Below are positions 6,301 to 16,758 of a stretch of 52,348 nt of DNA, piece by piece; position 1 is the stretch's first letter, and the number at the start of each line of letters is the position of its first letter. This DNA is from an uncultured Selenomonadales bacterium. Its GTDB lineage: Bacteria; Bacillota; Negativicutes; Acidaminococcales; Acidaminococcaceae. The position numbers and the translations under genes are program-made. The notes under the pieces were generated by a model that made no database searches, was not told the origin of the DNA, and saw only the letters and a program-made list of their open reading frames with translations. Where the stretch lies: positions 1 through 52,348 of the forward strand of contig ONAV01000022.1 in the NCBI GenBank assembly GCA_900315925.1, read 5' to 3'.

Positions 6301-6377
6301 CGGGGCATAGCGCAGGTTGGTAGCGCACCTGCCTTGGGAGCAGGGGGTCGCAGGTTCAAATCCTGCTGCTCCGACCA
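6301..6377 (+). tRNA. tRNA-Pro(TGG)
   Basis: Complete cloverleaf: acceptor CGGGGCA pairs with TGCTCCG (one G-T), anticodon loop CTTGGGA with anticodon TGG, T arm GCAGG-TTCAAAT-CCTGC, CCA encoded. Its last 48 bases form the left attachment site of the island, so the tRNA stays functional after integration. Confidence 0.95.
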
Positions 6378-6378
6378 T
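6330..6378. repeat. attL: 49-bp core repeat within tRNA-Pro
   Basis: Identical to 16710-16758 at all 49 positions. It covers the anticodon stem-loop, T arm, acceptor 3' side and CCA. Bases just outside differ at both ends, which sets the repeat limits. Confidence 0.93.
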
Positions 6379-6384
6379 AAAAAA

Positions 6385-6427
6385 TAAGCCCGGAGGCCAG
6401 TAGAATCAAGGCTTCCGGGCTTTCTTA
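6385..6427 (+). terminator. terminator just inside attL
   Basis: AAGCCCGGAGGCC and GGCTTCCGGGCTT form a strong stem followed by TCTTATT. It lies on the island side of attL, so the island supplies the terminator for the tRNA-Pro transcript. Confidence 0.75.
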
Positions 6428-6474
6428 TTGGCAGCGAATAACTTTATCTTGTGAAAGTGAAAGAGCCGGAAACG

Positions 6475-6516
6475 TACCCAAAATCACCCCAAACATACCC
6501 AAAAATGTACCCAAAA
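6475..6516. promoter_or_regulatory. candidate integrase arm-type sites, left end
   Basis: Three TACCCAAAA boxes (6475-6483, 6496-6504, 6508-6516) and a degenerate one (CACCCCAAA, 6486-6494). The last two boxes form a 21-bp block (6495-6515) that recurs in the same orientation at 16641-16661, inside the right end of the island. Confidence 0.55.
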
Positions 6517-6684
6517 AATCATGCGCTTTTAGCAAGATTTTTAAAACCATTGTTACCCTGCCAAACTTCCACAGAAGCCCCGGAAGGCCCGATTCTATTT
6601 CGGCGCGATAGTTTGTATGCGTCGCCCGTCAAAAACGCGCCTACGGGCATTCTGTGCGGTCGGCATTTTTAGACCGGCAATAAA

Positions 6685-6718
6685 AAAAGACTGCCAGCCG
6701 AAGCCAGCAGTCCATTTC
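6685..6718 (-). terminator. terminator of the leftward cargo operon
   Basis: On the minus strand GACTGC and GCAGTC arms, with an inner TGGCTTCGGCTG loop, are followed by seven T. Confidence 0.7.
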
Positions 6719-6720
6719 TT

Positions 6721-7041
6721 TTACCGCTTCATCATCCGCCGTGCAGTTTCTCTTATCTCCTTTGCTCGGTATATTCGTTCTTTATATAACGCTGGATAGC
6801 GTTTCGCTCTTTCTGCCGCTTCGCCTGAATTCTTGAATATGTCCTTCATATCCTCCGCCTTTTCCAGCATGTAACCAATTACGTAATCAACATTGCTATA
6901 GTCTATGCTGTGCGTGAGCATTTCAGTTATTGTCCCTCCCAAGGCAACAAAAATACAAACCATTTCATCCCGGCGCGCTTCGTCCCGCATCTTCTTATAT
7001 TGCTCTATCGATAATACCTTGCAGTCTACTAAAGTTTCCAT
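6721..7041 (-). CDS. hypothetical island protein
   Basis: 106 residues, not recognised. Soluble, rich in charged helix-forming residues, with a highly basic C-terminal half (ERAKRYPALYKERIYRAKEI) and no signal peptide. It is the last gene of a leftward cluster of small genes, 3 nt after the preceding stop, with AAGGA about 10 nt upstream of its ATG. Being in the cargo position next to attL it may serve immunity or helper interference, but nothing in the sequence shows this. Confidence 0.6.
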   Translation of the reverse strand: METLVDCKVLSIEQYKKMRDEARRDEMVCIFVALGGTITEMLTHSIDYSNVDYVIGYMLEKAEDMKDIFKNSGEAAERAKRYPALYKERIYRAKEIRETARRMMKR

Positions 7042-7044
7042 AGC

Positions 7045-7449
7045 TCAAGCGTCCTTCACTTTCAACACTTGCCGGAAGGCGTGGGCTTCAGCAGGGAATT
7101 TTTCCTGTATAAACTTTAAGGTTTCCTGCTTCCCTTCATCAGACAGAGATTCAAAGGCTTCTAATAATCGTTTGAACCGTTTAAATGATGCCAACAGTTC
7201 CGGATCAGCTTCAAGCATTGATTTAATTGCCCTGAGCTCGTACACGTCGGCTTCCTCTTCGGTAATTACTGCGCGGTTTACCAGTTCTTTCAGCCCATCG
7301 GATAGACCAGTAAAGCCGGTAAAGATAACCTGAATTTCCTTAATGCTACGGCCTTGTCCTTTTGCAAACAGGAAACGGATTTCGTTGTCTTCCATGCTCT
7401 GCAAAAAGTTAATCTTTCTTCCGTTGCTTTCCACAGACGACACATACAT
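7045..7449 (-). CDS. hypothetical island protein
   Basis: 134 residues, not recognised. Predicted largely helical, with a hydrophilic N-terminus and a repeated charged-helix pattern in the second half (LLASFKRFKRLLEAFESLSD). Its ATG overlaps the stop of the upstream gene (TAATG), a sign of translational coupling. AGGAGG lies 8 nt before the start. The fold cannot be named from sequence alone. Confidence 0.65.
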   Translation of the reverse strand: MYVSSVESNGRKINFLQSMEDNEIRFLFAKGQGRSIKEIQVIFTGFTGLSDGLKELVNRAVITEEEADVYELRAIKSMLEADPELLASFKRFKRLLEAFESLSDEGKQETLKFIQEKFPAEAHAFRQVLKVKDA

Positions 7450-7778
7450 TATTTTCCCTCCTCTGCCGTATTATCGCATTGATTCAACAAGTCCTCCAAG
7501 TCTGATATACCGCACCGAAAACCTAAATTAAAAGCGTCCTCGTACATGCCGCAAAGCAAAGCATAGAAATCTTCATCTCCCGCAAACTTTTCGAATTCAT
7601 CCGGGAAGTGAAACCAGTACAGCTTATCATTCGCCGCATGGTGGCGCGCCTCATTTCTTGCTTTAAAAAATCCTTCAATAGCTTCAACGCACTTCGCCTG
7701 ATCATAGTCAGGGTGTTTGGCCATTAAGGAATCCGTTACCGCTTTTACAGTTCTGAAAGAAACAATATCTGTAATCAT
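7449..7778 (-). CDS. hypothetical island protein
   Basis: 109 residues, acidic and helical. The C-terminal YEDAFNLGFRCGISDLEDLL recalls small phage proteins that end in an AF-x-LGFR-x-G helix, but I cannot assign a family. Start at 7778 supported by AGGAG 8 nt upstream. No own promoter was seen on this strand, so it probably depends on read-through from the ribbon-helix-helix gene. A predicted opposite-strand promoter overlaps the region just before its ribosome site. Confidence 0.65.
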   Translation of the reverse strand: MITDIVSFRTVKAVTDSLMAKHPDYDQAKCVEAIEGFFKARNEARHHAANDKLYWFHFPDEFEKFAGDEDFYALLCGMYEDAFNLGFRCGISDLEDLLNQCDNTAEEGK

Positions 7779-7795
7779 TTTCTTCTACTCCTATC

Positions 7796-7824
7796 TTGAT
7801 AATTGGCACGCATTCGGTTAAAAT
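7796..7824 (+). promoter_or_regulatory. promoter of a candidate small RNA
   Basis: TTGATA (7796-7801), exactly 17 nt, TAAAAT (7819-7824). It points rightward, against all neighbouring genes. Confidence 0.55.
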
Positions 7825-7830
7825 AGAAAT

Positions 7831-7908
7831 GTGCCATCAAAGTGATTGACCGTCCTATGGTAGCACATCCGGGCCGCTTGTTATTGCCAGTAACAGGCGG
7901 CTTTTTTG
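7831..7908 (+). ncRNA. candidate antisense small RNA of the island
   Basis: About 78 nt between a good promoter and a strong terminator. Hairpin 1 pairs ATGTGC-CAT (7829-7837) with ATG-GCACAT (7857-7868, bulged). Hairpin 2 pairs GCCGCTTGTTA (7873-7883) with TAACAGGCGGC (7891-7901) around a 7-nt loop and runs into TTTTTT (7902-7907). No open reading frame lies on this strand. It is complementary to the transcript linking the ribbon-helix-helix gene to the gene at 7449-7778. Alternative: hairpin 1 is a leftward terminator and hairpin 2 a stray rightward one. Confidence 0.45.
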
Positions 7909-7910
7909 GT

Positions 7911-8120
7911 TCATTTGCGTAAAGCTTGCATCTTGCGGAATGCTTCGAGCAAGTCTTTCCGGCGCTCCATATCCTCTTTTACCAGCGTGACGAGCAGGGT
8001 TGTTTTGTCCAGCCCTCTTGCGTCTGCCAGCGTATCGATCATTTCCTTTTCTTCTTCAGAAATTCTGATATTTACGGAAACATTACGAGCTTTGCCGGAT
8101 TCCTTTAATGGACGTATCAA
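7911..8120 (-). CDS. ribbon-helix-helix DNA-binding protein (Arc/CopG-like)
   Basis: 69 residues. The segment NVSVNIRISEEEKEMIDTLA is a ribbon-helix-helix N-terminus: an alternating beta strand, then helix A, with a second helix in DKTTLLVTLVKEDMERR. Such proteins are small dimeric repressors. The TTG at 8120 is preferred over the upstream ATG at 8138 because AAGGAGGT lies between the two, 6 nt before the TTG. The upstream region holds a promoter (8256-8284) and a perfect 10-bp inverted repeat (8214-8223/8247-8256), which suggests autoregulation and control of the cargo genes downstream. Confidence 0.75.
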   Translation of the reverse strand: MIRPLKESGKARNVSVNIRISEEEKEMIDTLADARGLDKTTLLVTLVKEDMERRKDLLEAFRKMQALRK

Positions 8121-8213
8121 AAAAACACCTCCTTTCATTCTATTTTTTTGCGGAATAAAAACGCATGAATACTGACTTCCAACACTATAATAATTTACGT
8201 CCGATAATACACA

Positions 8214-8256
8214 TTATGTAAAGCCTTTCATTTTTCTCTTTAATATCTTTACATAA
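8214..8256. promoter_or_regulatory. inverted repeat, candidate operator of the ribbon-helix-helix protein
   Basis: TTATGTAAAG (8214-8223) and CTTTACATAA (8247-8256) are perfect 10-bp arms 23 bp apart. One arm touches the -10 box, the other lies in the leader. Confidence 0.5.
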
Positions 8257-8284
8257 CAATATCACAATACCATAATAAAGTCAA
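8256..8284 (-). promoter_or_regulatory. promoter for the ribbon-helix-helix gene and cargo
   Basis: Minus strand TTGACT (8279-8284), 17-nt spacer, TATTGT (8256-8261). Confidence 0.6.
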
Positions 8285-8291
8285 GCTAAAA

Positions 8292-8328
8292 AGTGACCGG
8301 CCCCCTTTTGAGGGCCGGCCTTTTTTTA
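8292..8328. terminator. bidirectional terminator ending the main island operon
   Basis: A GC-rich stem (ACCGGCCCCC/GAGGGCCGGCC, loop TTTT) is flanked by a T run on the right and by ACTTTTT on the minus-strand side. It closes the leftward operon whose last stop is at 8326. Confidence 0.75.
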
Positions 8329-8481
8329 GTCTTTTACCGGGATTTCGGTTCGGTACAGCTTGCCGTCTTGTACGGTAATGCCGGGCACGGTCTTTGCGCT
8401 ATCCTTGCCGCCCTGTTCGGGCTTTGAGTCCGGCTTCCACGTGATCGTTTCGGTAATCCTATCAGGCGTTCCTTTGTTCAT
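8326..8481 (-). CDS. small hypothetical island protein
   Basis: 51 residues, hydrophilic, with no recognised family. ATG 8481 is chosen because GGGGGTGA lies about 8 nt upstream. The frame stays open further upstream, but that part overlaps the preceding gene. It is the last gene of the long leftward operon, separated by 7 nt from the terS-like gene before it. Its C-terminus (VQDGKLYRTEIPVKD) looks like a short beta hairpin. Confidence 0.5.
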   Translation of the reverse strand: MNKGTPDRITETITWKPDSKPEQGGKDSAKTVPGITVQDGKLYRTEIPVKD

Positions 8482-8488
8482 GGCTTTT

Positions 8489-8875
8489 TCACCCCCTTTC
8501 TTGCCCACTCTTCTTTTGGAGTGCTTCAATAGCCTGGCGCAGTTCGTCATCAGAGAAACTTGCAAACCGTTCCGACGGATTACTTACGCTGCCGGACAGT
8601 TCAATCTTTAGTGCCGAATCTTCGCCAAACATTTTAAGCAACCGGTCTATGGCTCCCAGATTGCCGTGCTTTGCCATGCGCACAAGCACCTTTGCAATCT
8701 CCTGCCGGTCTTCGTTCGTGCATTGCTCTTTCACAGTGTCACATAACGACTTGAAAGCGGCCTTTACTTCATTGCCTTTTTTCCCGGCTTTCACCGCGTT
8801 TTCACCGCGAAACTGTGTCTTATTTCTGTTTTCTGCCAGTGCTTTCCTACTATTCGGATTCATCCCCCGCGGCAT
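8489..8875 (-). CDS. terminase-small-subunit-like protein, third copy
   Basis: 128 residues. The N-terminal part NKTQFRGENAVKAGKKGNE is the phage TQF-x-GE-x-A-x-x-x-G-x-x-G motif seen in one class of small terminase and packaging proteins. The C-terminal part ends in NPSERFASFSDDELRQAIEA, a variant of the F-T/S-x-x-EL tail of the two genes upstream. ATG 8875 is favoured because AGGAG lies upstream; it overlaps the preceding gene by 26 nt. Function as a packaging-specificity factor is inferred from motif and position. Confidence 0.6.
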   Translation of the reverse strand: MPRGMNPNSRKALAENRNKTQFRGENAVKAGKKGNEVKAAFKSLCDTVKEQCTNEDRQEIAKVLVRMAKHGNLGAIDRLLKMFGEDSALKIELSGSVSNPSERFASFSDDELRQAIEALQKKSGQERG

Positions 8876-9329
8876 TTCTATAATTCTCTCCTTTCTCTCC
8901 AGTTCCTTTCTTTCTTCCAGTAAGTCCGACAATCTGCATCAGTTCCTCTTTCGTAAAATCCTTTAAAGGCGATTCGCACGAATTGTTGTTTACTATCACG
9001 CTGGTCTGTTCCGGTTCCGTGATTCCCATGGCCTTGCAGAACGATTCAAACATCCCTGCGCTGGTTCCAGCCCGCTGTCTGGTATCAAAAATCAGCTGAC
9101 CTAAATAGGTAGGTGGCAAGCCGGCCTTTTTCAGCAGCGTCCTTTTGCGCGGTTCCGGCACCTTCGCCATAAGATGGTCATAACCTGCAGCGCGGAACGC
9201 GGCCTTGATATTGCGCGAGACGCCGCTTTGTGTTCCGCCGGCTCTGCCATTTTTCGCCGCTTCCTCACCGCTTCGGAATTGCGTCGCTTTTCCTTTTTTA
9301 AGATTTTCCAGCTGCTTTTCCGTTACCAT
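8850..9329 (-). CDS. terminase-small-subunit-like protein, second copy
   Basis: 159 residues. It shares its N-terminus (TQFRSGEEAAKNGRAGG, then AAF) with the downstream gene, and its C-terminal module (KAMGI-x-EP-x-QT-x-V, then NNN and DFTKEELMQI) with the upstream terS. It therefore looks like a link between the two types. ATG 9329 abuts the stop of the upstream gene, and AGGAGG lies 5 nt before it. Helical throughout; no catalytic motif. Expected to be a DNA-recognition component of packaging, but a regulatory role is possible. Confidence 0.6.
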   Translation of the reverse strand: MVTEKQLENLKKGKATQFRSGEEAAKNGRAGGTQSGVSRNIKAAFRAAGYDHLMAKVPEPRKRTLLKKAGLPPTYLGQLIFDTRQRAGTSAGMFESFCKAMGITEPEQTSVIVNNNSCESPLKDFTKEELMQIVGLTGRKKGTGEKGENYRNAAGDESE

Positions 9330-9857
9330 TTACCCCTCCTGACTATCATCAGCCATTGCCGCAATCCTCTCCAGTTCTTCATCCGTAAACTTCTGGTACG
9401 GATTGTTAGTGATCGTCACGTTGGTCTGCTGCGGTTTCAGTACGCCGAGCGCCTTACCCATGAGATCCATCGCCTTGATGCGGTCAGCTAATGACGGTTC
9501 AAGACCAAACTGGTCTTTGACCTCACCTCTGCAAATAGCAGTGCAAAGCGTCATCCATTCGATAGCATCCATGATACGCTGGCCGGTTTCGTCATCCTCC
9601 AGCCCAGCAAAATGCTCCTGCAACGCTTTATAATATTGTTGCATGTGGTGTTTTGTAGTGCCTCGCTTTGCTTCATCGTTTATCAGGTGATATGCCTGAT
9701 GCCTCGCATACTTCCTGTTTTTGGTTCCGTATGCCTGACAGTATGCCTCGGTAACGTTACGATTTGGCAGCGAAAAGCACAGTTCAATAAAGGCTCGCTG
9801 ATGCTCTTTCAGTTTCAGTTCATCGGCCAGCTTTTTTAAATCATCAGGAACGTTCAT
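9330..9857 (-). CDS. terS: phage terminase small subunit (TerS)
   Basis: 175 residues. The N-terminal segment KLKEHQRAFIELCFSLPNRN followed by VTEAYCQAYG is the terminase small-subunit helix-turn-helix start (family pattern: Q-x-x-F, then N-x-T-x-A-x-x-x-AG/YG). The C-terminal LKPQQTNVTITNN and KFTDEELERI would be the region that contacts a large subunit. No large terminase gene exists in the island, so this protein would have to work with a helper phage's TerL, as in PICIs. GAGGTGAT lies before ATG 9857. Confidence 0.75.
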   Translation of the reverse strand: MNVPDDLKKLADELKLKEHQRAFIELCFSLPNRNVTEAYCQAYGTKNRKYARHQAYHLINDEAKRGTTKHHMQQYYKALQEHFAGLEDDETGQRIMDAIEWMTLCTAICRGEVKDQFGLEPSLADRIKAMDLMGKALGVLKPQQTNVTITNNPYQKFTDEELERIAAMADDSQEG

Positions 9858-9880
9858 TTGATCACCTCGCTTTCTATTCC

Positions 9881-10417
9881 TTAACGCAACATACTTTCCA
9901 CTGTAGCCGCACCATAAGCCGCGGCATATAGCTCCCCGGCACGAATCACTTCCGCTTTCATGATGAAATACTTGCCCCGACCAATCGCCAGCTCCTTACA
10001 TGTCGTCGCCCATGGCTCGTTATCTACATACCGCCGGATAAAGAAATCGCGTATGGCATTTCCTTCAGAAAGATAGTATTTCTTTAACGCTACCGTTATC
10101 CGCAACCATTTTCCCGGATAGCGTAAGCGGAATGTTTCCTGCCAGCGATGATCTGCCGCATACAATTTTGTTTTTTCATTGTATTTTGGCGCCGGCCCGT
10201 ATAACTGTCCGTACGGCACATCTAAATAGTTAAGGGCGTCAATACGCCGTAATGCCTGCAAGGACGTCGGATCAGATACTTTCGTCCGGCTGCCGCCGCT
10301 CCCCGCAAGTGTACTGCCGAATGATATGCCATGAAGAGGATTTGCCGTCTGCGCTTCCAGTGCCAGCTTTATATCCTGTTCATGCCACAGGCAAAATTCA
10401 ATCGTTTCGGGTACCAT
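9881..10417 (-). CDS. RinA/ArpU-like phage late transcription activator (probable)
   Basis: 178 residues. SGGSRTKVSDPTSLQALRR is the signature-like centre of sigma-like phage late activators (DUF1492/ArpU/RinA group: G-x-x-S-x-x-SDPT-x-x-A). The C-terminus (AIRDFFIRRYVDNEPWATTC followed by KELAIGRGKYFIMKAEV) can form a sigma-region-4-type helix-turn-helix. It lies directly before terS, the usual place of rinA-type genes. ATG 10417 is preferred over ATG 10426 because AGGAAG lies 9 nt before it. The assignment rests on pattern and position. Confidence 0.55.
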   Translation of the reverse strand: MVPETIEFCLWHEQDIKLALEAQTANPLHGISFGSTLAGSGGSRTKVSDPTSLQALRRIDALNYLDVPYGQLYGPAPKYNEKTKLYAADHRWQETFRLRYPGKWLRITVALKKYYLSEGNAIRDFFIRRYVDNEPWATTCKELAIGRGKYFIMKAEVIRAGELYAAAYGAATVESMLR

Positions 10418-10594
10418 ACATATCATCTTCCTGTAAAAACATATAACTTTTCGGCCGCGTTATCAGCCGTGAACCGGGTTTCTATATCTCTTTTTGAAAT
10501 AAGGCCGTCCTTGCCGCCCGGTTTTGCCCATGGCGCATTTTCTTATGCAAGGGCATGTACTCATACAGGCCTCAGGTTTAAACGCGCCCACCGG
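10418..10594 (-). other. gap with a possible micro-ORF
   Basis: 177 bp between two operon genes. A minus-strand frame of 33 codons begins MSTCPCIRKCAMGK and ends YRNPVHG; its Cys-x-Cys-x3-Cys pattern hints at a small metal-binding phage protein, but no clear ribosome site supports it. Otherwise nothing recognised. Confidence 0.25.
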
Positions 10595-10894
10595 TTAAAA
10601 TAGCGCCTTGAAATTCAATAGCGAGCTTACATCCTGAACGCTGCGCGCCAAAATGTACTTTACCCCATGGCTTTCACAATCTCTTTGGAATTGTATCTGT
10701 TCCGGAGACTGTCTTCCGGTTGCCGTTTTGATTTCGATATAAACCACTCGCCCGTCTTTCATGGCCGTCAGGTCCGCCAGTCCACGGTGCTGCCCAAAGC
10801 CCATTTGCATGTTGTAATACACGAACCACCCTGCCAAACGCAGGGCGTCCACTACTGCTTTTCTGATAAAGGTTTCCGGTTGTGTTTTTGCCAT
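10595..10894 (-). CDS. VRR-NUC domain nuclease
   Basis: 99 residues that make up a stand-alone VRR-NUC domain of the restriction-endonuclease-like fold. The catalytic pattern is visible: E in PETFIRKAVVDALRLAGW, D in HRGLADLTAMKDG, E-x-K in VVYIEIKTATG, then the S-x-EQ-x-x-F helix. These nucleases are common in phage replication modules, next to helicases and primases, where they process DNA structures. GGGGTGGGG lies just before ATG 10894. Confidence 0.85.
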   Translation of the reverse strand: MAKTQPETFIRKAVVDALRLAGWFVYYNMQMGFGQHRGLADLTAMKDGRVVYIEIKTATGRQSPEQIQFQRDCESHGVKYILARSVQDVSSLLNFKALF

Positions 10895-10914
10895 TTACCC
10901 CACCCCCATAATAG

Positions 10915-11277
10915 TTAACAATGTTCCGCCGCCAATGCCCCCCACGGCAGGTTGTCGGCCCGTTCTTTGTCTTCCGTATCCATTTCATTATAGGCAGCTT
11001 TCTTTCCTGCGTACCATGCCGCAAAAGCCCATTGCCTGGCAGTGTCCGTGTCCATAGTTTGGGTAGCATCTGCAACCTTTCGATATTTCAGGAAAAAGTT
11101 CAGCGCCTCTATCTTCTTCCAGTCATCTTCAGTTAGGAGTGCTGTTTCCTCTGCCGCATGGCGGATCCAATCGTGACCAAACACAAATAACTTCTGCATA
11201 AAATCCGGATTCATTCCGGACTGTTCAATAATCCGCTGTGGGATATACCTTTCCATAGCATCACCCAGGCTTTCCAT
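10915..11277 (-). CDS. hypothetical protein of the island replication module
   Basis: 120 residues, not recognised. Helical and acidic, with no membrane segment. The ATG overlaps the stop of the primase-helicase gene (TAATG), so its translation is coupled to it, and it sits between that gene and the nuclease. A role accessory to replication is only a guess from position. Confidence 0.65.
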   Translation of the reverse strand: MESLGDAMERYIPQRIIEQSGMNPDFMQKLFVFGHDWIRHAAEETALLTEDDWKKIEALNFFLKYRKVADATQTMDTDTARQWAFAAWYAGKKAAYNEMDTEDKERADNLPWGALAAEHC

Positions 11278-13343
11278 TAGCTAAAATCCTCTTTTAAAAA
11301 ATCGTTTTCCGGCATGAGCGGGATCTGTTGTTTGAACATGGTTTCCCATCCAAAGTGCAGGTTCTGTTCCGTGGACGGCAGTAGGCGTTTAGTTTCCGGT
11401 TCATACCATAACGGAATGAAAAAATCCTGCGTCCCGTTTTCTCTGTCCTTACAAATTTCCAATACGTTTGTGCAATCTTCCGGGATATAGTGCGACTTCT
11501 TCTTACCAAAGAATTCAGCAGTCGCCTTGCTAAAATCTTCGTTGTTCCGGTGGATGATAAAGGCCGCGTCTACAATGTTGCCAATGTTCCCGCTGCCGCT
11601 GATATCATTCAGCCGTAAGAATCCGGTAGTTTTTCGCGGATGGGCTACAAATATAACGTGCGTGTTTGTCATTTTGGCAATGTTTTTCAATGCCCATACA
11701 AAATTAGTCTGCGCGTCGTACTTGTCCACGTTGTTGCCTAAATCAACGGCCATCAGGTTATCCAATACAATGCAGTCTGCATGTACTGTTTCGGCCTGAT
11801 CTTTTAACATGTTGGCCAGTTTCGCAAACTTATTGCCGTAGGCGTTATTGAAAAGGTAGAAATGCCCCATCATCCATTGGGCAATCTCTTTTTCCGTTTC
11901 GTCAGAATCCAGCGTGTAAAAGTTCCGGTAACGCTGTGAAGGTACGGTGTGCCTTTTCCCTGCCGCCTGCAGGAACATCCATTTCATGAAATTCTTTGCT
12001 GACAGTTCCCCGCTGTATGCTACGACGGTCTGATTATTATTGATCATCATCAACATCAGCTGACTTAACAGGGTACTTTTGGCAGATGCCCGCAGCCCGG
12101 AAAGGCAGCTTACGGATCCTTTGGCCAGCCCTTTCATGTTAAAATCAATCCCAGGTATCCCGGTCTGCAGATACTCTGCTTCCGGTTCATGCCTGCTGAT
12201 AATATCCTGTGCCGTCAGGAACACTGGTTCATCCGCTTTAGGTTTGGCTATGTTCAGCTTCACCGGTTCCCGGTTTGCGTTCGTGCAACGCGTCCAGCCC
12301 GTTTCTATCTGCCAGTCTGCCCGCTCTGTTTTCGTGTATGCGTCGGGTTCATACAGCAGCCGAACGTCCCGCCACGTTTTATCTGCACAGCTATTATGGA
12401 AGCACTTGAAACCGATTGCGCCGTTACCCTGTTTGAAAATACTTGCGTCCGGCGCTTTGTGTTCGCTATTAAAGGGGCAAACATCCAGCACATATTTAGT
12501 GCCGTCGCGCCAAGGTACTTGCTTATAGCCTATGCCGTGCGCCCTCATCCAGTTTTCAAGGTCAAACTGGCCTGGACCTTGTGCATACGTTTTGGGCTGC
12601 CTGGGTTCTTCGGCTTTTGGCAGCTGCGCTGCCAGCCATTCCAGTTTTGCCCTATCCACCACCTGCAGATTATCAGGCAAATACACAATCCGGCTCATGC
12701 GGTGTGGCCTGTCCTGTGTGTTTGCGCCCTTCTGCGCCAGTGTTCCGTATAGCTTGATGGTATGGGAAGGCGTTGCCATAGTAACATCAACTTCCACGTC
12801 CTCATTTGAAAACATCAGGTCAAGGGCTTTCAAGCAGTTTTGAAGCAGCTGTTTATTTTCGTCATTATTGGCCAGTGCTATCTTATATAGCAGGTGCACA
12901 CCGTTGCCACTGATTGCTATTACCGGTTCTGGATAATTGTGTTCACGAAAGAAGATATAAATCTTCTCTTTTGCCATCTGAATCGCCTTTTCCAGTTCTT
13001 CCTTACTGCTGGATATGCCTGATTTCCGTTTTGGATCCAAATCAATAGGCATCCATGAATAATAGTCAATATCATCATCCTTTGTCGCGGATGCACCTTT
13101 CAGGAATTTTCCGGCCTGTTCCATTGCCGCGCATGATTCATTGACCGTGTTCAAGGTTACGTAAACATTGGCATTATTAAGGTCCTGCCTTGCTAACTCT
13201 TTCAGTAAATCGTCAGCGTTTTTGAAATACCCACTAAATGCAGTTGGCGGTCTTTTCCGTATTATCCTTACTTCAAATACGCTGCCGGGAATAACCAACA
13301 CTGAAATAGCTTGCCTGACTTTAGCTTCATCAAAATATTTCAT
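11277..13343 (-). CDS. primase-polymerase/DnaB-type helicase fusion (Pri-Rep)
   Basis: 688 residues. The N-terminal region carries archaeo-eukaryotic primase-like motifs: DLD (101-103), SGNGVH (145-150) and KLYGT (197-201). A Cys/His-containing stretch follows (CPFNSEH near 289, CFHNSC near 314-319), perhaps zinc binding. The C-terminal half is a RecA/DnaB-like helicase with SGLRASAKSTLLSQL (Walker A at 416-424), CIVLDNL (Walker B) and HVIFVAHPRK. The last glycine of Walker A is alanine (A421). Probably the replication initiator-helicase of the island. ATGA overlap with the gene upstream, and AAGGAG before the start. Confidence 0.8.
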   Translation of the reverse strand: MKYFDEAKVRQAISVLVIPGSVFEVRIIRKRPPTAFSGYFKNADDLLKELARQDLNNANVYVTLNTVNESCAAMEQAGKFLKGASATKDDDIDYYSWMPIDLDPKRKSGISSSKEELEKAIQMAKEKIYIFFREHNYPEPVIAISGNGVHLLYKIALANNDENKQLLQNCLKALDLMFSNEDVEVDVTMATPSHTIKLYGTLAQKGANTQDRPHRMSRIVYLPDNLQVVDRAKLEWLAAQLPKAEEPRQPKTYAQGPGQFDLENWMRAHGIGYKQVPWRDGTKYVLDVCPFNSEHKAPDASIFKQGNGAIGFKCFHNSCADKTWRDVRLLYEPDAYTKTERADWQIETGWTRCTNANREPVKLNIAKPKADEPVFLTAQDIISRHEPEAEYLQTGIPGIDFNMKGLAKGSVSCLSGLRASAKSTLLSQLMLMMINNNQTVVAYSGELSAKNFMKWMFLQAAGKRHTVPSQRYRNFYTLDSDETEKEIAQWMMGHFYLFNNAYGNKFAKLANMLKDQAETVHADCIVLDNLMAVDLGNNVDKYDAQTNFVWALKNIAKMTNTHVIFVAHPRKTTGFLRLNDISGSGNIGNIVDAAFIIHRNNEDFSKATAEFFGKKKSHYIPEDCTNVLEICKDRENGTQDFFIPLWYEPETKRLLPSTEQNLHFGWETMFKQQIPLMPENDFLKEDFS

Positions 13344-13810
13344 TCGATTTGTACTCCTTCTGCTGTGACTTTTGGGCGGGCTTCCCTTTTTTCATTCTTT
13401 ACCATTATTGTTTGTGGTCCATCTGCTGGTCCGTCCGCTGGTTCGTCAGTTGGTTCGTCTGCGAATTGGATATCGTTGTAAATGCCGTAATTTACTATGT
13501 TTATGATAGTTCCAGCGTTGGTTCGCTTGGTGGTACACATTGAGTTCGCTTCGAGGGTCGCTAAAAAACGCTTCACCCTGTTCCTGCTCCAATGCCATTT
13601 TTCGGCAAGGTGTAAGATGGATGTGCACTTCTCTCCCCGGCGGACCGTAACAGGCCGGCCATCAGCACTAAAAGTTTTATCGCGGTGATTGGCTTCCAGT
13701 AACAGATCAACCCAGGCATGAAACCTGTCAAACGGCTTACCATCATTCAATATCGGATTTTGGTCTATACATCGCCATAATGGAATATAGCCTCTCTTTT
13801 TGTTTGCCAT
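13340..13810 (-). CDS. replisome organizer / initiator-like winged-helix protein
   Basis: 156 residues. The pattern YIPLWRCIDQNPIL, then FDRFHAWVDLLLEANHRDK, RRGEKCTSILHLAEKWHWSR and VNYGIYN is that of phage replication-organiser proteins with an N-terminal winged helix. The C-terminal third is a low-complexity DEPADGPADGP stretch encoded by four 12-bp direct repeats (13416-13463). Phage initiators of this class often bind iterons inside their own gene, so the repeats may be the origin. ATGA overlap with the primase-helicase gene downstream. Confidence 0.75.
   Translation of the reverse strand: MANKKRGYIPLWRCIDQNPILNDGKPFDRFHAWVDLLLEANHRDKTFSADGRPVTVRRGEKCTSILHLAEKWHWSRNRVKRFLATLEANSMCTTKRTNAGTIINIVNYGIYNDIQFADEPTDEPADGPADGPQTIMVKNEKREARPKVTAEGVQIE
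13416..13463. repeat. four 12-bp tandem repeats inside the initiator gene, candidate origin iterons
   Basis: Units begin at 13416, 13428, 13440 and 13452 with consensus GGTYCRTCHGYT on the plus strand. They keep the reading frame and encode repeated DEPA/DGPA. Confidence 0.45.
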
Positions 13811-13926
13811 TTCCTCTGCTCCGTGGTAAAATCGTGGCAGGAATATGAAGATGCCATCTTTCTGTTCCTGCCTTTGCGCCCTGCCAGTGCCCGCTGGTTG
13901 GGCGTTTTTGTTTTTTTAGTCATCAT
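13765..13926 (-). CDS. small basic hypothetical protein (possible)
   Basis: 53 residues starting MMTKKTKTPNQRALAGRKGR, strongly basic at the N-terminus. Its double ATG overlaps the stop of the excisionase-like gene, and AGGAG lies 12 nt upstream. Its 3' end overlaps the initiator gene by 46 nt, which is more than usual and lowers confidence. No family recognised. Confidence 0.35.
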   Translation of the reverse strand: MMTKKTKTPNQRALAGRKGRNRKMASSYSCHDFTTEQRKWQTKREAIFHYGDV

Positions 13927-14227
13927 TGCCCGCCCTTTCTCCTGCTCTGCTTCTTCTTTTCGCAATCAGAGCCTTGAGCCTTGCCGTCCGGCTGGTGTAT
14001 TGCTGCGGCAGCTTATTCACGTTCCGGCAGCTTGTCCGTTGCTGCGGTTGCGGTTCATAGATAGGTTGTGCCTTGAGCATCTGCATTTTCGCCAGTGCTT
14101 TATCCCTGTCCAGCAGATACACTTTGCCAGATAGCCAATGCTCCAATATACCAGTCCTGCATAAACGCCGGATAAGTTTGACTGGGAACCCTGTCTCGTG
14201 TGCGAATTCCTTTGCAGAAACAACCAT
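13916..14227 (-). CDS. excisionase/AlpA-like DNA-binding protein
   Basis: 103 residues. The N-terminal half VSAKEFAHETGFPVKLIRRL, with a later YLLDRDKALAKM, follows the excisionase/MerR-like winged-helix pattern. The C-terminal half is basic and Q/R-rich, and could bend DNA at the att arms. It is the second gene after the switch region, the place of xis or alpA in satellites, and would pair with the integrase for excision. AGGAGGTG 7 nt before ATG 14227. Confidence 0.6.
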   Translation of the reverse strand: MVVSAKEFAHETGFPVKLIRRLCRTGILEHWLSGKVYLLDRDKALAKMQMLKAQPIYEPQPQQRTSCRNVNKLPQQYTSRTARLKALIAKRRSRAGERAGNDD

Positions 14228-14230
14228 GTA

Positions 14231-14431
14231 TCACACCTCCTTCAATAATTCTTTTGGCGAAATGTTCAGAGCCGCCGCCAACTTTCCGATAGTAACCAAC
14301 GTTGGCGTGCGTTTTGCGTGCAGAATCTTTACAAGCGTGTTATAATCTACCTCTGCCCTGGCCGCTAACGTCTTAATGGCAATCTTTTGTTCTGCCATTA
14401 TGCTTTTTAACGCAATCAGATTAAACATCAT
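14231..14431 (-). CDS. Cro-like helix-turn-helix regulator
   Basis: 66 residues, a single XRE-type domain: IAIKTLAARAEVDYNTLVKI is the helix-turn-helix, then RTPTLVTIGKLAAALNISPKELL. First gene of the leftward lytic-type operon, opposite the larger repressor at 14553. GGGAGG 5 nt before ATG 14431 (a second ATG follows at once). Likely role: the Cro side of the switch. Confidence 0.75.
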   Translation of the reverse strand: MMFNLIALKSIMAEQKIAIKTLAARAEVDYNTLVKILHAKRTPTLVTIGKLAAALNISPKELLKEV

Positions 14432-14468
14432 TTTACCTCCCGTCTATGCTTTAATGTGCCAAAATCTC

Positions 14469-14497
14469 TTGACAAGACTATTTTAACACGTTACTAT
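14469..14497 (+). promoter_or_regulatory. rightward switch promoter (repressor and integrase)
   Basis: TTGACA (14469-14474), 17-nt spacer, TACTAT (14492-14497). Its -10 box lies inside the spacer of the leftward promoter, and the two promoters face each other. Confidence 0.65.
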
Positions 14498-14507
14498 ATT
14501 GTTGCAA
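14480..14507 (-). promoter_or_regulatory. leftward switch promoter (Cro-like operon)
   Basis: Minus strand TTGCAA (14502-14507), 16-nt spacer, TAAAAT (14480-14485). A TAAC-AC-GTTA inverted repeat (14484-14493) lies between the two -10 boxes and could be the shared operator. Confidence 0.5.
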
Positions 14508-14552
14508 GCCCATGAGAAAATAGCCCATTAAAAAATACAAGGGAGGCGCAAA

Positions 14553-15428
14553 ATGAAGTTACGGAAATCAAAATTATATGCCGAATATGCTGTTACTATT
14601 GCAGCAAGATTAAAGGAAATCAGAAATCGTCATCATTATTCACAGGCACAAGTCGCAAAAATGCTAAATATGGGAGGCTTTGAGCCCGATTCTGGCAAAA
14701 AGGCTTACGCTGCTTATGAGCAAGGCAGAAATATTCCACCATTGGATAAACTTTTGAGATTGTGCGAGATATATAATATGTCACCAAATACCATTTTAGG
14801 TTATGAGGACACAGCAAGATTAAATGTTCTTTGTGATAGATACAATATTACATATGAAACTATTGACAATTATAATGTAAAATTGGCCATTTCCGACAAC
14901 GAACATACTATTCCAAAGCATATTTTCTTTGAAATAATGTTTAAGGCTGAAAGAATGGTTAACTCTGTTGATACAGACTATTTACAAAAGTTAAGAGAAT
15001 CCGAAAAAGTATTATTTAACACCTTTTTTAATAGTGAAATTACAAATTTTAATGCTCCAAAATACACTTTGGAAATGGCTTTACATGATTTAGAAAATAT
15101 TGAAACAGAAGAAAATGACGCCATCATAGAAATTGACGGTAAAAAGATATCGATTGATGCAGATGTGACAGCTAAAAGATACAGAGAGGAAATAACAAAA
15201 GTTATTGAAAGAAAAAAACTTTTTTTAAACGATCCAAACTGCGAAGTTGAAGATAAAGAAAAAATCAAGGAGCAAATTGCAGATTTAATCAACCAAACTA
15301 ACTTAACCGATGAAGACACATATAAGGAAATTTTTAAAAATTTAAACCTAACAGAAGAGCAGATAGATCAGCTCATAAAAGTGTACATGGAAAAGCTGGA
15401 ATCAAAGAAGGGAGGCAAGAATCAATGA
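14553..15428 (+). CDS. CI-like helix-turn-helix repressor with long acidic C-terminus
   Basis: 291 residues. An N-terminal XRE domain (about 15-85; LKEIRNRHHYSQAQVAKMLN, then GRNIPPLDKLLRLCEIY) is joined to a long charged helical region. No RecA-responsive S24 peptidase domain is present, so it would be released from DNA by a partner protein rather than by self-cleavage, as with SaPI Stl proteins. Visibly more AT-rich than its neighbours. GGGAGG precedes ATG 14553. Its stop overlaps the integrase start (ATGA). Confidence 0.75.
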   Translation: MKLRKSKLYAEYAVTIAARLKEIRNRHHYSQAQVAKMLNMGGFEPDSGKKAYAAYEQGRNIPPLDKLLRLCEIYNMSPNTILGYEDTARLNVLCDRYNITYETIDNYNVKLAISDNEHTIPKHIFFEIMFKAERMVNSVDTDYLQKLRESEKVLFNTFFNSEITNFNAPKYTLEMALHDLENIETEENDAIIEIDGKKISIDADVTAKRYREEITKVIERKKLFLNDPNCEVEDKEKIKEQIADLINQTNLTDEDTYKEIFKNLNLTEEQIDQLIKVYMEKLESKKGGKNQ

Positions 15429-16606
15429 AAAAGACGGTAAAAAATTCTACGTATGGACAAGGTGCAATCGGTTATGAAAAAGTCGGTAAATATGAGTATT
15501 GGACATTGCAGTATTATGATAATTCCGGGAAGAAATTAAAAAAGCGTTTTCCATACACCAAACAAGGTGAGGAAAACGCTAAAAAGTTTCAGAAGGAAGT
15601 CAGCCGGAAGAAATCAGACGGCGTGCTGGTTTCTTGCAAGCACACAGTAGCATCATGGTGTGAAGAATACATACAGACCTATAAAATCAATTCGCTGCGT
15701 GACAGCTCCCTGGCCATCCTGCTATCCACCTTCAACAAAATTGAAGTAAGCCCTATCGCAGATATACCGCTGGACAAGGTGAACGGAGCCATGGTGCAGA
15801 ATTTTTATAACATGCTCTCCGAAACCTGGACTGACAAAAACGGCAAGGCCCATGAGCCGATTGCATCCAGCAGCATCGGCAAAGTGCATAAGCTGCTGGC
15901 GGCAGCGTTCAAAAAAGCACTGCAACTGCGAATGATAGCCTTTAATCCCATGGACGTGGTGGAGCCTCCGAAAGTGAAGTATGCAGAAAAAGGAATATTC
16001 ACAGAAGAGGAAATTCAGAAGATTTTTGAGGCTGTAGACATGATTGCAGCCAAAAAATGCAACACCCGGCAGACGCATGATTACAGTCTGTTGTTCACCA
16101 TGCTGCTGCAGTGCGGAATGCGTGTAGGTGAATTGCTGGCCCTCCAATGGCAGGATATTGATTTTGGTAAGCGTGAGATCCATATCCACAGTACGAAGGT
16201 ACGCTGCAGGCAGGAGTTCAACGATACCAAGACCAAAGCCGGCAACCGGTACATCCCTATTATCAGTGACAATCTGCTGGCCAGCCTGAAAGAATACCGG
16301 ATCAGGAAGAACATCATCCGGACGACCGGATACATCTTTGAGGACTCCCACGGCGGCGCCATGGAATACCGTAACATAACCAGGTATTGGACCAACATCC
16401 GCAAACTGACAGGCATTGAAAAGAACGTTCACTGCTTCCGGCACACCTGCGCCACACTTTGGCTTGAAAAAGGAATACCGGTTGCGGAAGTTTCCCGGAT
16501 CTTGGGACACAGCGATCCGACCATCACGTATTCCATGTATACCCACAGCATCCCGGGTTATAACCAGCGAATTATTGAAATGTTCCGGCGGACAAAACAG
16601 GCCTAA
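15425..16606 (+). CDS. int: tyrosine recombinase (site-specific integrase)
   Basis: 393 residues. An N-terminal arm-binding region (YEYWTLQYYDNSGKKLKKRF) is followed by a SAM-like core-binding domain and a catalytic domain with the full set: R233 in CGMRVGELLAL, H336-x-x-R339 in HCFRHT, GH in LGHSDPT, and nucleophile Y372 in MYTH. It is translationally coupled to the repressor and lies about 100 bp from attR, so it is the recombinase that placed the island in tRNA-Pro. Confidence 0.95.
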   Translation: MKKTVKNSTYGQGAIGYEKVGKYEYWTLQYYDNSGKKLKKRFPYTKQGEENAKKFQKEVSRKKSDGVLVSCKHTVASWCEEYIQTYKINSLRDSSLAILLSTFNKIEVSPIADIPLDKVNGAMVQNFYNMLSETWTDKNGKAHEPIASSSIGKVHKLLAAAFKKALQLRMIAFNPMDVVEPPKVKYAEKGIFTEEEIQKIFEAVDMIAAKKCNTRQTHDYSLLFTMLLQCGMRVGELLALQWQDIDFGKREIHIHSTKVRCRQEFNDTKTKAGNRYIPIISDNLLASLKEYRIRKNIIRTTGYIFEDSHGGAMEYRNITRYWTNIRKLTGIEKNVHCFRHTCATLWLEKGIPVAEVSRILGHSDPTITYSMYTHSIPGYNQRIIEMFRRTKQA

Positions 16607-16641
16607 TCCGCTGCCAAAAACCGGCCCAAAAAAGCAAGATA

Positions 16642-16661
16642 TACCCAAAAATGTACCCAAA
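16642..16661. promoter_or_regulatory. candidate integrase arm-type sites, right end
   Basis: Two TACCCAAA boxes (16642-16650 and 16654-16661) inside a 21-bp block identical to 6495-6515. Confidence 0.5.
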
Positions 16662-16709
16662 TAAATACAGAAATGTGTCAACCGTGCGGTTTATAAACAC
16701 TTTTATCAA

Positions 16710-16758
16710 TGCCTTGGGAGCAGGGGGTCGCAGGTTCAAATCCTGCTGCTCCGACCAT
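16710..16758. repeat. attR: 49-bp core repeat
   Basis: Copy of the tRNA-Pro 3' end without the 5' half, so it is not a tRNA gene. It marks the right end of the island. Confidence 0.93.

Follow-up and report, generated by a model that had tools for sequence, protein, structure and literature searches.

A probable phage satellite at a tRNA-Pro gene of an uncultured Acidaminococcaceae bacterium, with tail tape-measure genes in its relatives

The window analyzed here is a 52,348-nucleotide contig (ONAV01000022.1, assembly GCA_900315925.1) from an uncultured Selenomonadales bacterium of the family Acidaminococcaceae, and its positions 6330-16758 form a 10.4-kb integrated element at a tRNA-Pro gene, hereafter the island. 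Comparison with related genomes suggests that the island is probably a phage satellite that works like a phage-inducible chromosomal island (PICI), and our best reading is that its lineage hijacks the packaging and, in some members, the tails of helper phages. The original prediction that a Negativicutes host carries a satellite-type element inserted at tRNA-Pro was supported: the element is common to a sister species, absent from 9 of 14 genus genomes and intact in its coding frames, and the only virion gene found in it encodes the small terminase subunit (TerS).

Integration site, gene order and selection

To place the island, we list its target and boundaries (coordinates, strand, feature):

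6301..6377, +, tRNA-Pro (TGG), the integration target by tRNA call, its 3' end being the attachment (att) core
6330..6378, +, attL core, 49 bp, present as a single copy at the empty sites of sister species
16710..16758, +, attR core, 49 bp, from repeat comparison

The two att copies are identical at 49 of 49 positions, and the first makes up the 3' end of tRNA-Pro (TGG), which bears out the repeats and target that had been proposed. Empty sites, suggested as a check, proved frequent: among 14 genus genomes the site was readable in 12, with nine empty (G044, G047, G048, G049, G050, G051, G052, G053 and G054), three filled by satellite-type elements (the island's own genome, G045 and G055) and none by a prophage, while a contig broke at the repeat in G056 and the site was not located in G046. 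Among the empty sites, the spacing in G047 is ~0.7 kb larger than in the others, and in G050, G052 and G053 the right-hand neighbor is a tRNA-Gly gene. The island itself sits on contig C59 of a draft assembly (2.56 Mb in 100 contigs, 88% complete) and has a GC content of 45% against 49-51% in its flanks. Between the att copies, 16 candidate genes cover 87% of the DNA, with the integrase and CI genes pointing rightward and the remaining 14 leftward, and a purine-rich, Shine-Dalgarno-like stretch was seen by eye ahead of most start codons.

Family scans against Pfam and PHROGs covered 18 island open reading frames (ORFs), with shorter and other ORFs outside the scan. The integration, switch, replication and late-regulator features are as follows:

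15425..16606, +, tyrosine integrase, 393 aa (phrog_1, E 3e-68; Pfam Phage_integrase)
14553..15428, +, CI-like master repressor (HTH_3, phrog_8)
14436..14546, no strand, CI/Cro intergenic region and candidate operator, with a 36-nt imperfect inverted repeat (14436-14471 / 14511-14546, 72% complementary)
14231..14431, -, Cro-like repressor (HTH_26)
13916..14227, -, Xis-like protein, 103 aa, common to related elements (weak excisionase match, phrog_66, E 0.02)
13340..13810, -, DnaD-like helicase loader or initiator, 156 aa (phrog_2514, E 3e-24)
11277..13343, -, pri-rep, a primase-helicase of 688 aa (phrog_19, phrog_239), N-terminally primase-like by eye and C-terminally DnaB-like
9881..10426, -, putative ArpU/RinA-like late regulator, 181 aa (distant relatives)

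The absence of virion machinery noted in the original prediction was reproduced, with no match to large terminase subunit (TerL), portal, capsid, tail or lysis families among the scanned ORFs. Its gene inventory stood for the integrase, CI, Cro, initiator, pri-rep and terS, all of which have family matches; the excisionase is a weak call, and two frames described below, a second TerS-type gene (8850-9329) and an ORF at 8489-8932, had been overlooked. The look-alike of the Xis-like protein in a related element (L111, by eye) does match phrog_575 at 7e-5. The predicted RinA/ArpU-like activator had no direct profile hidden Markov model (HMM) match in Pfam, PHROGs or NCBIfam, and its alignment reached solved structures only at a best E of 0.74; the assignment comes from a distant relative (L084:8714-9169, 27% over 72 residues) that matches the regulator families phrog_36 and phrog_248, and another relative (L085:8003-8410) lies immediately upstream of a terS.

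A matching island lies in the sister species Acidaminococcaceae bacterium UBA2453 (G045; class Negativicutes, assigned to the window's genus), on contig DDQB01000038.1 (C74). It is 11.9 kb long, occupies the same tRNA-Pro and is bounded by both att copies, and the contigs align through host genes on either side. Pairwise comparison of these two islands covered 14 of the 16 genes, two having no counterpart, and ratios of nonsynonymous to synonymous substitution (dN/dS) were kept for 11 after setting aside cro (no dS), the ribbon-helix-helix gene (dS 0) and CI (value 0.25, the G045 frame that was compared not opening with a start codon). The 11 kept genes have intact frames and dN/dS values of 0.02-0.48, including 0.10 for TerS, 0.10 for the integrase, 0.07 for the ArpU-like gene, 0.33 for the KGG gene introduced below and 0.22 for the helicase. 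Because frames are intact and under purifying selection, these data argue against decay. BLAST identity to G045 ranges over 79-99% across island segments (lower in CI and Cro) against 82-88% in the nearest flanking genes, falling to 76% farther out, which suggests that the island recombines and is mobile. The most diverged proteins are CI (126 of 262 residues identical) and Cro (33 of 64), as would be expected if the two islands differ in immunity type.

Packaging genes, an exchange slot and tail genes in relatives

In the late-type block headed by the ArpU-like gene, up to three frames may act in packaging:

9330..9857, -, TerS (TerS1), Terminase_2/phrog_51 class, 175 aa (phrog_51, E 1e-13; Terminase_2, E 9e-5, 23.6 bits against a cut-off of 26.1)
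8850..9329, -, second TerS-type protein, KGG/DUF5681 class, 159 aa, directly after terS (phrog_2412, E 4e-7)
8489..8932, -, weakly KGG-like ORF (the third ORF), 147 aa, or 128 aa from an ATG at 8875; possible third TerS-type protein

The TerS1 profile reached 3zqp, a structure of the TerS of phage SF6, at E 0.011. A search of TerS against related genomes had been proposed, and across 380 genomes of the class the profile matched nine, both islands included; in six of the seven relatives outside the islands the downstream gene is an ORF of 414-484 aa that we judged by eye to be TerL, whereas G207 has an integrase in that place. The G207 locus (L109, on the 8.7-kb contig C88) pairs a phrog_51 TerS with an integrase-like neighbor, shows no TerL by eye among its ORFs, and may be a further satellite in another Negativicutes family. 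Scans of viral contigs with TerS1 returned nothing and tblastn against phages one 44-residue match, megablast of the whole island against phages gave no match, and NCBIfam held nothing for TerS, the KGG protein, the third ORF or the ArpU-like protein.

The KGG protein belongs to a family, phrog_2412, whose function entry in PHROGs is unknown. A tblastn search of the KGG protein against phages gave no match. Relatives occur in ten viral contigs, and in eight of these they abut or are fused to TerL as recognized by Pfam or PHROGs; of the remaining two, the gene next to the L053 relative matches TerL models below curated cut-offs and the neighbor in L047 is not a TerL. Besides the two island genomes, four of 59 family genomes had strong matches, which are fused to TerL in G002, abut TerL in G009, abut a gene that by eye starts like the G009 TerL in G005, and have TerL farther downstream in G040; a fifth match, in G051, is weak and lies inside a 3,283-aa open frame. 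The natural fusions (L049:666-2258 in a viral contig and L071:6740-8317 in a prophage-like region of G002) hint that the KGG/phrog_2412 family may be TerS. By blastp, TerS1 and the KGG protein are 42% identical along a C-terminal stretch of 38 residues (small local database, filter off; E ~2.5e-4), and TerS1 shares 50% over 30 residues with the L053 protein, whereas the N-terminal parts of TerS1 and the KGG protein are unrelated. On this thin evidence the common C-terminal tail could be a TerL-docking part, and the combination of unrelated N-termini with a similar C-terminal stretch leads us to propose two DNA-reading heads with a common tail that docks on a single TerL family.

Directly after the KGG gene, the DNA alignment of the two islands breaks around 8493/8905, where G045 instead encodes a tail tape-measure protein of 517 aa (phrog_2276, E 4e-22) that starts 5 bases past the KGG gene behind a ribosome-binding site that looks good by eye. 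Its sole other match in the family is at 28%, in a G013 prophage of contractile-tail type by eye, and the viral-contig scan gave one weak match at 25%. As read from the alignment, this slot is an exchange cassette that holds the weakly KGG-like third ORF in the window and a tape measure in G045. The third ORF aligned with the KGG family at an hhalign probability of 54% (P 1.3e-4; HMM E 0.02) and with TerS1 at 1%; structure prediction gave no confident fold (predicted local distance difference test score, 55), and neither the viral-contig scan nor tblastn against phages found a match. A TerS role for it is a guess. Its three class-wide matches outside the window's genome were rejected as relatives, as two (L088, L089) lie over longer ORFs that look housekeeping-like by eye and one (L087) is antisense to a longer ORF.

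A cousin element couples terS to tail genes as well. In G051, contig C17 carries a 10.8-kb satellite at tRNA-Trp (L111:6012-16812) with a 49-bp att repeat and genes for CI, Cro, an Xis-like protein, a DnaD-like loader and a ribbon-helix-helix protein, together with a TerS from a different class (phrog_57, E 2e-29) and a tail assembly chaperone (phrog_3140, E 9e-16) directly upstream of a tape measure of 1057 aa (phrog_28, E 4e-106). Among its ORFs, ten of which were scanned, TerL, portal and capsid were not seen, and a 123-aa ORF had weak matches (E 0.02-0.06) to regulator and spanin families. The chaperone matched no solved structure, and by blastp (E up to 0.01) the tape measure matched nothing else in the compared loci, the tail region of the G044 prophage included.

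Integrase relatives at E < 1e-40 occur in nine of 59 family genomes, two of them in satellite-type elements at tRNA-Trp. One tRNA-Trp element, G045:C76, has a 51-bp att repeat and a phage-type primase, with no TerS among the ORFs read, four of which were scanned. At tRNA-Pro in G055, a third species, lies a different element of 6.1 kb, which encodes a related integrase (73%), CI, Cro and Xis-like proteins, a phage-type primase, a VRR-NUC-like protein and a protein of 126 aa that has no family. Among the 59 family genomes, the primase-helicase occurs in two, that of the window and G045; its closest class relative outside the genus (49%, L083 in G120) lies in a prophage-like region by eye that is cut by the contig end. 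Viral-contig scans with the helicase, Xis and the G051 TerS gave no match, and relatives of TerS1, the ArpU-like protein and the primase-helicase outside the genus are few and apparently borne by prophages or plasmids. A 7.5-kb human-gut 'phage' record (L009, MT838871.1) that encodes a primase-helicase 32.5% like the island's along with a ParA-like gene by eye appears more plasmid-like.

The rest of the island is made up of the following:

10915..11277, -, ORF of 120 aa with no family named, 115/120 identical in G045
10595..10894, -, VRR-NUC/Holliday-junction-resolvase-like nuclease, 99 aa (phrog_93, 4e-13; phrog_5702, 1e-11)
7911..8138, -, ribbon-helix-helix protein, 75 aa, resembling by eye one encoded by the tRNA-Trp satellite of G051 (top Pfam match NikA-like at 20.6 bits, under its cut-off of 27)
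7449..7778, -, accessory ORF, 109 aa, without a DNA match in the G045 island
7045..7449, -, accessory ORF, 134 aa, no family above curated cut-off, 117/134 identical in G045, dN/dS 0.48
6721..7041, -, accessory ORF, 106 aa, no family above cut-off, 102/106 identical in G045, dN/dS 0.34

By DNA alignment, region 7465-7792 has no counterpart in the G045 island. PADLOC on ten island ORFs gave weak matches only, on CI, and no convincing iterons were seen by eye. Two further regions deserve mention: in the window's own genome, L116:5027-12716 (contig C61 of G000) bears an integrase, a 46-bp repeat at tRNA-Arg and two large ORFs, and in G051 about 12 kb (L036:2638-15073, contig C22) lies between tRNA-Gly and a partial match to that gene, with ORFs that are integrase-like, resolvase-like and biotin-synthesis-like by eye.

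How the island would work and what competes with that reading

If the island is a satellite, a helper phage would lift CI repression such that the island excises and replicates, and the ArpU-like protein would turn on the terS block. The island TerS proteins would then bind island DNA and bring it to the helper TerL, filling helper-made heads with island DNA, and in members with a tape measure, or a chaperone and tape measure, the satellite would probably replace part of the helper tail. A bolder and more tentative version, which we think possible but hold with less than even confidence, is that of a modular virion-takeover block in which stacked TerS proteins of unrelated classes share a TerL-docking tail, the adjoining slot takes either a TerS-type reader or a tape measure, and the cousin combines terS, chaperone and tape measure; packaging and tail building would thereby be redirected together, with specificity changed by adding heads rather than by evolving one.

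Several observations weigh against the satellite interpretation or parts of it. No helper phage was found: across the order, the TerS1 search matched the two islands only (2 of 63 genomes), two Pfam models found no TerL in the 88%-complete host genome, and the prophages of the genus use other TerS proteins, namely phrog_83 in G044 and phrog_606 in G048 and G049; the TerS of the G051 prophage resembles the G044 type by eye. Profile comparison makes the proposed common tail weak, as hhalign of the two TerS alignments matched the same region at a probability of 2.7% (E 0.017), and the ArpU and Xis calls have weak or indirect grounds. Toward its far end, the G045 island has a 103-aa ORF with a weak match to an endolysin family (phrog_25820, E 0.005), and all three genomes with an element at tRNA-Pro (the window's, G045 and G055) are draft assemblies. 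Finally, because its primase-helicase is of phage or plasmid type, a prophage origin of the island is likely even if it is now a satellite.

The alternative that survives best concerns only the tail genes: the tape-measure/KGG cassette might be an anti-phage decoy that poisons virion assembly of a helper or competitor instead of contributing a redirected particle part. A variable slot would suit such a weapon, and PICIs and the PICI-like elements (PLEs) of Vibrio cholerae encode tail-assembly blockers (Tai, PMC11364771; Rta, PMC12987554). The tape measures are nonetheless long open frames (517 and 1057 aa), and in G051 the chaperone stands directly upstream of one, the pair that PLEs use for tails, so that we regard a decoy as unlikely.

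Somewhat less probable still is that the island is a decayed prophage, with an ordinary temperate phage having shed the late genes beyond terS, so that terS and the G045 tape measure would be functionless remnants. Phage-like early genes, the tail gene and weak endolysin-like match kept in G045, and the lack of a helper in the TerS1 order search and host TerL search are all compatible with it. Against it stand the intact frames under purifying selection in two species, both of which have this reduced gene set at one and the same site with only cassettes exchanged, and on these grounds we rejected the G045 tape measure as proof of decay. Moreover, the G045 and G051 elements separately retain terS and a tape measure, with no head gene seen and no tail gene beyond the tape measure and the G051 chaperone. 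Capsid, portal or TerL genes of the same element in related genomes had been named as a finding that would refute the satellite reading, and the virion genes that the relatives do have, a tail tape measure in G045 and a chaperone with tape measure in the cousin, touch on that condition.

That the island is a self-sufficient replicon or integrative element moving without phage, its terS-like genes being passengers or regulators, is very improbable, since its own replication module, the ParA-like gene (by eye) beside a similar primase-helicase in the gut record and the sub-threshold NikA-like mobilization match are set against no relaxase or conjugation family above cut-off in the scanned ORFs, strong purifying selection on TerS, and an ArpU-like gene immediately ahead of terS, as in the G132 prophage.

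Reading the island as a satellite gives the gene pairings some wider interest. Head and packaging manipulation by satellites is already well documented, whereas tail remodeling was described as hitherto unknown in the 2026 work that demonstrated it for PLEs (PMC12987554); here terS and a tape measure occur together in two small satellites (G045, G051) in which no head gene was found. Our literature search, which left preprints and most subscription papers outside its scope, returned no title or abstract reporting terS with a tape measure in small head-less satellites, no title on two terS genes in one satellite and no paper on PICI satellites in Negativicutes. These elements raise the questions of whether a single satellite can employ TerS proteins of two classes through a shared docking tail and whether terS plus chaperone plus tape measure is a general minimal kit for tailed-phage takeover, and the genomic link of phrog_2412/DUF5681 to TerL suggests a function for this family.

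Comparison with known satellites

Compared with a complete prophage, the island falls short, having no TerL, portal, major capsid, tail or lysis match. P4-like satellites and minimal islands carry a D5-type primase, and the phage-family primases of G055 and G045:C76 are presumably of this D5/P4 type; the island differs from them in its DnaB-like helicase and in the presence of terS.

Gram-positive PICIs are recognized (PMC6092414) by an order of integrase and repressor on one side and xis, replication module and terS on the other, an att site never occupied by prophages, a size of ~12-15 kb, PICI-exclusive genes, and induction that depends on a helper, with which they interfere and in whose particles they are packaged. 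By that description the island resembles PICIs and Staphylococcus aureus pathogenicity islands in having integrase and repressor on one side and a divergent xis (a weak assignment), replication genes and terS on the other, in that no virion gene other than TerS was found among the 18 scanned ORFs (from which the G045 sister departs with its tape measure), and in a tRNA att site with no prophage in 12 readable genus genomes, although at 10.4 kb, and 11.9 kb in G045, it is slightly small. It differs from them in its DnaD-like loader with DnaB-like primase-helicase, the ArpU-like gene that immediately precedes terS, the tandem of TerS genes from two classes, tape measures in relatives and a Negativicutes host. 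The original claim that this gene order defines PICIs was not supported in that form, as the loader and primase-helicase are phage-like and the nearest class relative of the helicase outside the genus is in a region that is prophage-like by eye. Given the tape-measure relatives, strict PICI membership of the lineage is doubtful, which does not cast doubt on a PICI-like way of working.

Capsid-forming PICIs (cf-PICIs) are likewise satellites with some virion genes, and putative tape-measure genes are reported in them and in PLE-like elements (an extended-data legend of PMC12987554); the island differs in having no capsid, portal or head match. PLEs, which exploit phage ICP1, encode their own tape-measure protein, tail assembly chaperone and, in PLE11, baseplate hub, and the PLE tape measure is found in chimeric tails, according to the same paper. 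G045 with its tape measure and G051 with its chaperone and tape measure, both without the rest of a tail, resemble PLEs in this respect as judged from genes alone, whereas the pairing of terS with tail genes in these relatives, and the absence of a tape measure from the window's own island, set the lineage apart. Overall, the tail genes of the related islands appear to fit satellite-encoded tail genes of the kind described for PLEs (PMC12987554) better than they fit decay.

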